Shown here in pieces: positions 1 through 3,613 of a stretch of DNA of 64,000 nt. The notes beneath the pieces were generated by a model. It was not told the DNA's origin and did not search any database. It worked only from the letters and a program-made list of their open reading frames with translations. The position numbers and the translations under genes were made by a program. The DNA is taken from assembly GCA_034522055.1 (NCBI GenBank), contig JAXHLS010000002.1, positions 3,181,549 to 3,245,548 on the forward strand, read 5' to 3'. This DNA is from Gammaproteobacteria bacterium. Lineage in GTDB: Bacteria; Pseudomonadota; Gammaproteobacteria; JAABTG01. Numbering within the stretch: the first letter of the stretch is position 1; each line of letters begins with the position of its first letter.

Positions 1-1
1 A

Positions 2-760
2 GAGTCCCTAGATCTTCGTATACTAAACGCAAATATGAAGCTTGGGGGCTCGCTGCTCTCCAAGCTGTTGGCTTGGTGGATATCACTAGATGACCCATCG
101 ACTCTTATCGAAAAGCTATTGGAGCTTGACCCATCGTCGCTGTCCAAACTCAATGCAGCGCTGGGTCTCGGAAGGCTCAAATCGGCGCTCCAGATTTGGG
201 ACCAGAACAAGGACAACAGTGACGAAGAGGTCTGGCAAGCAAGCTTGACGGAACACTCTTTTGTGTTGGAGCAGGTTTTCTCGTGGCCCGCTTCAATTGT
301 TGAGGGGAAAGCCTATGTAGGCGGCAAGAATGTCTTCAATAAGTCCGGGAACATCGTCGACTTTTTAGTGAAAAAGCGCCTCACTCAAAGTGCCGCGCTG
401 ATTGAGATAAAGACCCCTACCACGAAGCTTCTCGGCTCGAAGTATCGGCAAACATTCAATGTCTCGGCGGAACTCTCCGGGTCTACGATGCAGATTCTCA
501 ACTACAAGCACTCTCTACAGGAAGCCTATCGAGATTTGCGGGGTGATCAGAAAGATCTATTTGATTCATTTGATCCTCAATGTGCTGTGATTATTGGCAG
601 CACGGATCAGTTAGACGACCGTGCAAAGGTCAAAGCCTTTGAGCTGTATCGACACCAGTTCCCGGGTCTTGCGATCATCCCTTTTGATGAGCTGTTTGAA
701 AGGACAAGGAAACTGGTCGGGCTCCTAGAAGCGGAACCGGGATCTGAACCTCCTGGATGA
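2..760 (+). CDS. Shedu (SduA-like) defence nuclease, 5'-truncated by window edge
   Basis: The protein resembles the DUF4263/Shedu family, PD-(D/E)xK nucleases that act alone in anti-phage defence. Counting from the ATG at 35, the nuclease core shows E64/E65 in EEVWQ, the YVGGK segment near 94, D109 in NIVDF and the E124-x-K126 pair in LIEIK. It ends in the family-typical helical stretch around SGSTMQILNYK. The frame is open from base 2 with no stop, and no convincing ribosome site precedes the ATG at 35, so a longer N-terminal specificity region probably lies outside the window. The annotated start is the window edge, not a real start codon. Family assignment is confident; target and activity are not visible. 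Confidence 0.8.
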   Translation, partial: ESLDLRILNANMKLGGSLLSKLLAWWISLDDPSTLIEKLLELDPSSLSKLNAALGLGRLKSALQIWDQNKDNSDEEVWQASLTEHSFVLEQVFSWPASIVEGKAYVGGKNVFNKSGNIVDFLVKKRLTQSAALIEIKTPTTKLLGSKYRQTFNVSAELSGSTMQILNYKHSLQEAYRDLRGDQKDLFDSFDPQCAVIIGSTDQLDDRAKVKAFELYRHQFPGLAIIPFDELFERTRKLVGLLEAEPGSEPPG

Positions 761-1156: not shown

Positions 1157-1776
1157 GCCTATTTGCTAAATATGTGCCCGCGAACTTTTCTGCAGCAAGG
1201 CTGCTCAGGTTATTAACATTATGATTTGATAAAGGTTATCGCGAAATCGAAAGATTGCGGCACCATCTTTGCAGGGTGTTCTGTGGCCCTTGCGTCGGAG
1301 CGAGGAAAATTAGTGGAGACTGGGAGGTACATTGTTATGGGAAACGTTATTTCAACGCTGGTACGCAAGACAGGACTGGGAGCGTGTATCGCGCTCGGCG
1401 TCGCTGTAGCGGCTCAGGCCGCACCAATTACTGGGGACCCACAGGGCAACTCATTTGGTTGGGTGCCCCCCAGCACGAACGCGTTAAACTTCACGTCGCA
1501 GGTGCCGGGTCGCGAAGGCCAGACGGCACCGCACGTGTTATTCAATACGAATGGCATTGGTTCGGTGACACTGGATTTCTTTAATTTTGGCCCTGGAGTC
1601 GCCTTCTTTGAGATCAGACTGGACGATCTGGCAACCGGGACGACCGCACACCCTGTTGTGATCGGTGACACGATTCATAGCGGAAATTTCCTTACCACAG
1701 GCACTTCAGATCTTGGCGTCGTCTATAACCCAACAAATTACGTCGATGTTCGCCTTGCGCTGGGTGGCGAGAGAGA

Positions 1777-1785
1777 CTGGGATTT
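1777..1785. repeat. Target site duplication, left copy
   Basis: The 9-mer CTGGGATTT directly abuts the left end of the insertion sequence and is repeated at 3448-3456. Confidence 0.92.
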
Positions 1786-3447
1786 GGGTGCAGATCTTTT
1801 AGGACGCAATGAAATCAATGAGATAGCGTGATTGGGGGTAGCCGAAAGGGCCAGCCGATGGTATGTAACAAGCTACGAAACCGTTATGTACCACTGGGAG
1901 GCCCTTCCGACGATGACAGCGTATACCAAGGTGGATGGATTTGACGAGTTTGCGGCGGCCCGAGAGGGGTTTGAGCACTTGGTGGGTGCGCTTTGCAGCG
2001 CGGACAACGAGGCATTGGAGCACGGCCAGGTGGAACGACTCATTGAGGAGGAAGGACGGGAAGTTCTGCGGCGCTTGATGCAGGGTTACGTGGATTTGCG
2101 CACGCATAGCGAGGTGCGCGTGAGCGCGGTGACAGGTGCCGATGGCCAGGAGCGGGAGCAGTTTCGCGGCGACCGTAGCCGGCAGCTTGAGACCGTGTTC
2201 GGGACCGTCGAGGTCCGGCGCAAAGGCTACAGCACGCGGGGATTGGCGAGTGTCTTTCCGCTGGATGAGTCGCTGAACCTGCCGCGGGAGAAGTACTCGC
2301 ACGGTCTGCGTGAGCGGGTGGTCAAGGCCGTGGTGAAGGAGTCCTTCGACGAGACGGTCAGCGCGGTGCGCCAGAACACAGGAGGCCATGTCCCCAAGCG
2401 CCAAGCCGAGCAGCTGTCCACGGTCGTGGTGGAGGACTTTGACGCCTACTATCAGTCCCGCGCGAGCACACAGGCCGAAGACACCGATCTGTTGGTGATG
2501 AGCGCGGACGGCAAGGGTATCGTGGTGCGGACCGAGGACTTGCGTCCGGCGACCCGCAAGGCGGCCCAGAGCACGTGTCACAAGCTCAAGACCCGGCTGA
2601 GCCAGGGTGAGAAGCGCAACCGCAAGCGGATGGCCACCGTGGCGGCTATCTACGACGTGGCGCCGCACTGGCGCAGTGCCGAGCAGATCATGGGTGTGGA
2701 GGAGCGCTCGGGCGATGCCCGGCCCCGGCCTGAAGGGAAACGGGTATGGGCCAGCCTGGAGGAGTCCCCGGAGATGGTCATCGAGCGCCTGTTTCAGGAG
2801 GCTGCCCGGCGTGATCCAGAGCGCCGGCGGCGCTGGCTGGTGCTCGTAGACGGGCACGAGAAGCAGCTGGACATCGTGAACGGGTGCATCGCGCGTTACG
2901 GGGGCGACGTGGTGGTCATCCAGGACTTCATCCATGTGCTGGAGTATCTGTGGAAGGCCGCTTACTGCTTCCATCCCGCGGGCTCGCAGGGCGCCGAGCA
3001 GTGGGTCATGGAGCGGGCTCTGCGCGTCCTGCACAGCGAGGCCAGCAGCGTGGCTGCCGGCATGCGCCGCAGCGCGACACGCCAGGGATTGACGCCAGCG
3101 CGGCGCAAGGCCGTGGACACCTGTGCCCGCTACCTGCTCAAGAACAAGGCGCGCCTGGATTATGCCGAGGCACTGGCCCACGGATGGCCCATCGCCACCG
3201 GCGTCATCGAGGGTGCCTGTCGTTACCTGGTCAAGGACCGCCTGGAAATCACCGGCGCCCGATGGAGCTTGAAGGGTGCTGAGGCCATCCTCAAGCTGCG
3301 CGCCCTGCATGCCAGCGGAGACTTACAGGACTACTTTGCATTCCATCGCAGCCAAGAGCGGCGGCGCAACTATCCGACCGGGTATGGCCAGCCGTGCTGC
3401 CTGGCCGCATAGGGGCTGGTGGATGTCGCTCCAAAAGAGCCGCACCC
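1786..3447 (+). mobile_element. ISKra4-family insertion sequence, complete
   Basis: The element is 1662 bp and is bounded by imperfect inverted repeats that both begin GGGTGC and match at 16 of the first 21 positions. A perfect 9-bp target duplication flanks it. It carries one intact transposase gene. It inserted into the PEP-CTERM gene without any deletion, so the event looks recent and should be reversible by precise excision. Confidence 0.9.
1913..3412 (+). CDS. ISKra4-family transposase
   Basis: This 499-residue DDE transposase drives movement of the surrounding element. The acidic triad is plausible at LVLVDGHEK, VVVIQDFIH and GVIEGACRYLVKDR, the last followed by the family-typical TGARW. 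The start at 1913 follows a GGGAGG ribosome site; longer in-frame starts upstream (ATG 1886, TTG 1832) lack one. No frameshift or internal stop is visible, so the enzyme is probably functional. Confidence 0.88.
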   Translation: MTAYTKVDGFDEFAAAREGFEHLVGALCSADNEALEHGQVERLIEEEGREVLRRLMQGYVDLRTHSEVRVSAVTGADGQEREQFRGDRSRQLETVFGTVEVRRKGYSTRGLASVFPLDESLNLPREKYSHGLRERVVKAVVKESFDETVSAVRQNTGGHVPKRQAEQLSTVVVEDFDAYYQSRASTQAEDTDLLVMSADGKGIVVRTEDLRPATRKAAQSTCHKLKTRLSQGEKRNRKRMATVAAIYDVAPHWRSAEQIMGVEERSGDARPRPEGKRVWASLEESPEMVIERLFQEAARRDPERRRRWLVLVDGHEKQLDIVNGCIARYGGDVVVIQDFIHVLEYLWKAAYCFHPAGSQGAEQWVMERALRVLHSEASSVAAGMRRSATRQGLTPARRKAVDTCARYLLKNKARLDYAEALAHGWPIATGVIEGACRYLVKDRLEITGARWSLKGAEAILKLRALHASGDLQDYFAFHRSQERRRNYPTGYGQPCCLAA

Positions 3448-3456
3448 CTGGGATTT
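3448..3456. repeat. Target site duplication, right copy
   Basis: CTGGGATTT here is identical to the copy at 1777-1785 and restores the reading frame of the interrupted gene when joined. Confidence 0.92.
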
Positions 3457-3586
3457 TGACTGGACGCGCTTTGAGGCTCAGTCGGCGAACGCTGTTCCAG
3501 TGCCTACCACCCTCGCTCTCATGGGCCTTGGCCTAGCCGGTCTTGGCTACTCACGCCGTAAGAAGGCGTAAGTAGAAAAAGCTTTG

Positions 3587-3613
3587 TAAAAGCCCTCTCC
3601 TGAGGGCTTTTTA
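3587..3613 (+). terminator. Rho-independent terminator of the PEP-CTERM gene
   Basis: The sequence has a GAGGGCTTTTT right arm pairing with AAAAGCCCTC, a four-base loop and a T run. It lies 16 bases after the TAA at 3569-3571. Confidence 0.85.

Follow-up and report, generated by a model that had tools for sequence, protein, structure and literature searches.

The 64,000-nucleotide stretch of DNA analyzed here (the window) sits in a 3.7-Mb contig of a gammaproteobacterial genome of 5.14 Mb in 7 contigs. Near its left end lies a gene for a PEP-CTERM protein, preceded by a candidate sigma-54-type promoter and a putative ribosome-binding site and beginning with a predicted Sec-type signal peptide (Table 1). 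The gene is interrupted by an insertion sequence (IS), on the far side of which we found its severed 3′ part, which encodes the sorting signal, and an inverted repeat that is likely an intrinsic terminator. Directly upstream, a Shedu-type anti-phage gene (SduA_C, E 4e-23; window positions 1–760, L037:1577–2872) stands between the interrupted gene and another PEP-CTERM gene (L037:931–1728).

Table 1. Features of the interrupted PEP-CTERM gene and of the inserted element (positions in the window).
Feature	Position	Strand	Remarks
Sigma-54-type −24/−12 promoter candidate CGGCACCATCTTTGCA	1258..1273	+	10/12 consensus positions
Putative ribosome-binding site GGGAGGT	1322..1328	+	Read from the sequence
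Interrupted PEP-CTERM gene, present reading	1337..1831	+	164 aa: 149 native and 15 IS-encoded
Predicted Sec-type signal peptide MGNVISTLVRKTGLGACIALGVAVAAQA	1337..1420	+	Clear in the translation, by eye
Left target-site duplication CTGGGATTT	1777..1785	+	Within the codons for DWDF
ISKra4-family insertion sequence	1786..3447	+	1,662 bp, ends GGGTGC...GCACCC
Left terminal inverted repeat GGGTGCAGATCTTTTAGGAC	1786..1805	+	
Transposase	1832..3412	+	Full length, no internal stops; 526 aa listed from TTG
Right terminal inverted repeat	3428..3447	-	Minus strand reads GGGTGCGGCTCTTTTGGAGC
Right target-site duplication CTGGGATTT	3448..3456	+	
Detached 3′ portion of the PEP-CTERM gene	3457..3571	+	Joined-protein residues 151–187 and stop
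PEP-CTERM sorting signal VPVPTTLALMGLGLAGLGYSRRKK	3494..3565	+	28 bits to TIGR02595 (genome-wide scan)
Inverted repeat AAAAGCCCTC/GAGGGCTTTT	3588..3611	+	Likely intrinsic terminator

The inserted element belongs to the ISKra4 family by its transposase, its terminal inverted repeats and its 9-bp duplication. The transposase matches the ISKra4-family model NF033572 over model positions 2–422 of 422 with 366.3 bits (cut-off 205 bits); an internal ATG may be its real start instead of the TTG. The terminal inverted repeats GGGTGCAGATCTTTTAGGAC and GGGTGCGGCTCTTTTGGAGC are short and imperfect, and the exact 9-bp sequence CTGGGATTT abuts both ends of the element, a coincidence with a chance of about 4e-6. 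The ISKra4 family corresponds to the p-MULT 4 Mutator-like transposases, a superfamily whose repeats measure 8–9 bp (Guerillot et al., 2014, PMC3942029). We saw no difference of kind between the element and this family; some of its members are reported upstream of sigma-A promoters, a placement that we did not see here by eye. The initial annotation, which described an ISKra4 element flanked by identical sequence, was right on this point. The interval that it proposed to delete, 1786–3456, is the right piece (1,671 bp, or 557 codons); the IS proper covers 1786–3447 and the rest is one copy of the duplication.

Joining 1337–1785 to 3457–3571 yields a single stop-free frame of 187 aa, and its product scores 24.2 bits against TIGR02595 (cut-off 16) and 28.0 bits against PF07589 (cut-off 20.7). 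Deletion of 1786–3456 thus rejoins the frame and restores the PEP-CTERM tail, as had been proposed. In joined-protein numbering, the IS sits within the motif ERDWDFDW, after D149 and before F150, and splits the codon of F150. The present product ends in ...GGERDWD-LGADLLGRNEINEIA and lacks F150 as well as residues 151–187. As previously described, the truncated protein does keep its predicted signal peptide and lose its anchor, but this description leaves something out: the conserved core motif is cut as well, and its end is gone. The last predicted strand (E155–158 in the L075 model, mean pLDDT 70.9) is removed by the truncation too.

Relatives of the joined protein are encoded at eleven loci in named genomes. 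The nearest are those of Roseovarius sp. ZX-A-9 (67%), a Halioglobus MAG (L076, 59%), another gammaproteobacterial MAG (56%), and Thioalkalivibrio sp. ALJ7 (52%). The Halioglobus homologue matches the joined sequence over residues 12–186 and runs uninterrupted over the IS junction. More distant relatives (36–47%) belong to a Candidatus Atribacteria bin, to haloarchaea, and to other archaeal bins. The ERDWDFDW motif is invariant in all ten relatives that were aligned, bacterial and archaeal alike. Pfam and NCBIfam offer no model that scores above its cut-off on the family core, the matches being mainly to the sorting tails, and searches of the PDB by sequence and by fold returned nothing significant, with generic beta-sandwich domains only (E above 1e-3). 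The joined window protein and its relatives at L075–L083 and L085 form an unmodelled surface-domain family that spans Proteobacteria, the Atribacteria bin, and archaea. At L084:25–864 (Pseudorhodobacter MAG), the family C-terminus is followed, after VPLPGTLPL, by an unrelated sequence of 200 residues, which reflects either a deletion fusion or an assembly error.

The sorting signals vary across the family. The joined protein and its gammaproteobacterial relatives carry a PEP-CTERM tail, the Roseovarius protein has a VPLPA-CTERM tail (31.9 bits, cut-off 25.35), L080 ends in an archaeal-looking VPEFG...RRR as judged by eye, and the haloarchaeal relatives show a Tat-like start and no sorting tail. 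The family is also sparse: among 369 genomes sampled from the class and 399 from the phylum, this genome was its sole carrier. The gene is absent from a same-genus genome, and none of the viral contigs and plasmids searched encodes the family core. Neighbors shared between the homologues are not apparent in the ORF listings of their surroundings. The family appears to have spread via horizontal transfer.

The genome search for exosortases suggested by the initial annotation identified both XrtA (352.3 bits, cut-off 208) and XrtD (578.8 bits, cut-off 400), together with PrsR (737 bits, over its cut-off) and about 17 PEP-CTERM ends. Since exosortases are present and an uninterrupted homologue exists, we conclude that the locus is a genuine interrupted PEP-CTERM gene. 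These findings support the claim that the target, formerly intact, encoded an exported, exosortase-processed protein.

Analysis of the candidate promoter showed that 1.8% of dinucleotide shuffles score as high (frequency 0.018). Comparable −24/−12 sites lie upstream of three gammaproteobacterial homologues (shuffle frequencies 0.001, 0.009, and 0.062); no such site precedes the Roseovarius homologue or appears at the two archaeal loci scanned (L080 and L081). Elsewhere in this genome, a site scoring at least 10 precedes eight other PEP-CTERM genes versus 2 of the 58 long ORFs in the window (3%), a comparison that is rough because the control ORFs are not curated genes. In Aquincola, a PEP-CTERM gene has been shown to depend on RpoN, and in other bacteria the PEP-CTERM/exosortase system is linked to the formation of flocs (PMC9850573). 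Because its candidate promoter is of the sigma-54 type, as in many PEP-CTERM genes here, the interrupted gene probably belonged to the sigma-54 PEP-CTERM regulon before breakage. It shares a predicted signal peptide, a PEP-CTERM tail, a candidate −24/−12 site, and the presence of XrtA and PrsR with the RpoN-PrsK/PrsR-controlled PepA of Aquincola (PMC9850573). However, the joined protein matches floc_PepA (NF033554) over residues 76–186 with 32.2 bits only (8.9e-8), far below the cut-off of 80. Its core differs from that of PepA, being an unmodelled domain that carries the invariant ERDWDFDW; it is not PepA itself.

Four copies of the ISKra4 element, with 97–100% identity, are present in the genome. 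All four are bordered by perfect 9-bp duplications at unrelated sites (CTGGGATTT, TTTGAATTA, TTTTCCTTT, and ATAAGCTTA), which indicates that this footprint is normal for the ISKra4 family. The transposase is uninterrupted in three of them, the window copy included, and the fourth carries a 1-bp frameshift. Pairwise, the copies differ at 9–48 sites, and the window copy differs from every other at 18 sites or more, so that no recent donor copy can be named. The disruption had been called recent; the perfect duplication and the two halves, both still open, weakly support this view, while the number of differences and the lack of a donor copy do not. We rejected a preference of the IS for PEP-CTERM genes because none of the other three copies lies in a recognizable reading frame. 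The same-genus genome contains just a right-end piece of a related IS (87%), and the plasmid search gave partial matches of 60–80% only, mostly in Streptomyces. The genome also carries about six near-identical copies of a second ISKra4-like element (L007–L012), which matches at 72% along a short stretch.

Other PEP-CTERM genes of this genome are damaged in ways that excision could not repair. At L100:3162–5243 (G000:C6, about 1172661–1174742), a C-terminal PEP-CTERM half adjoins an IS3-type element whose inverted repeats are perfect over 30 bp. This site (C6:1174668) was considered as a second reversible IS split and rejected: to the left of the element lies an unrelated gene in the opposite orientation, and the 5′ half of the PEP-CTERM gene has therefore been lost. 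At L040:526–1605 (G000:C2, about 738089–739168), a PEP-CTERM gene probably carries a single in-frame stop between stretches of 281 and 78 codons. Both cases fit ordinary decay, and for the interrupted window gene, too, insertional decay of the ordinary kind is the simplest reading. On a 62-kb contig, a PEP-CTERM-like tail within an open frame of only 33 codons (L101, G000:C4:26039–26113) is probably a gene remnant.

The initial annotation regarded the insertion as a possible on/off switch. In such a switch, in the manner of IS492 or IS256 in polysaccharide genes, the IS would excise precisely often enough for cells to go back and forth between an anchored protein and a broken one. We consider such a reversible switch very unlikely. 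It is true that the element lies undamaged in the coding sequence, as do its two ends and the target duplication, and that precise excision would restore the frame. However, any IS removed together with one duplication restores its target, so that the rejoined frame is no evidence for switching. The target, a surface protein of a floc-linked system (PMC9850573), would suit a switch, and IS256, whose transposase belongs to the same superfamily, can leave cleanly; circular intermediates have also been proposed for this superfamily. Yet a review (PMC11178275), citing Hennig and Ziebuhr (2008), reports the precise excision of IS256 as a rare event that requires neither transposition nor the transposase. 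In the present case, the assembly contains no empty site, the IS occupies this position in no homologue, the three other copies do not interrupt recognizable frames, and the footprint is the standard one found at every copy. The locus resembles IS492 in Pseudoalteromonas atlantica and IS256 in Staphylococcus epidermidis in that an IS with its duplication lies in a gene for a surface or matrix component that excision would restore; it differs from them in that neither excision nor a revertant or empty site is seen here, in one assembly. IS492 belongs to a different recombinase family, and we know of no such switching in the ISKra4 family. That ISKra4 excision at a useful rate controls a sigma-54/PrsR-regulated, exosortase-anchored surface protein is thus highly improbable in our view.

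Truncation might instead have produced a modified but useful protein, secreted and soluble rather than anchored, which we also regard as unlikely. The candidate promoter, the putative ribosome-binding site, and the predicted signal peptide remain and 149 of 187 residues are native, but the cut falls inside a motif that is invariant in every aligned relative and the last predicted strand is lost, so that a stable fold is doubtful. Loss of function would therefore be likelier than a merely unanchored protein, with the caveat that the native part still includes the predicted signal peptide and the greater part of the beta-sandwich, and that a secreted soluble form could keep some activity. A misassembly of IS copies, for which a genome in 7 contigs with four copies offers some room, has almost no chance of explaining the junctions: the copies differ from one another and the window copy shows variants found in no other, an exact duplication of its own and unbroken unique flanks are seen at each of the four, and the window lies in a 3.7-Mb contig.

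Taken together, our results point very probably to a static loss-of-function insertion of an ISKra4 element in a former sigma-54-promoted PEP-CTERM gene, not to a programmed switch, and we found no evidence against the insertion itself. According to the course of events that we propose, an intact ISKra4-family element moved into a single-gene PEP-CTERM surface-protein gene, presumably functional and sigma-54-promoted at the time, and duplicated 9 bp of the target. The insertion terminates the protein within its most conserved motif and removes 37 C-terminal residues, sorting signal included. The product is probably either misfolded or exported as a remnant without an anchor, which would amount to a loss of function. 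The element would then persist as an ordinary insertion mutation, which rare precise excision could revert in principle.

If switching did occur, it would be a switch driven by an IS family hitherto without a known switching role. The insertion is otherwise ordinary, but it provides a clean marked allele for measuring the excision rate of ISKra4. The target family is the more useful by-product of this analysis: it is rare, is unmodelled in Pfam and NCBIfam, and combines an invariant ERDWDFDW motif with several alternative sorting signals.
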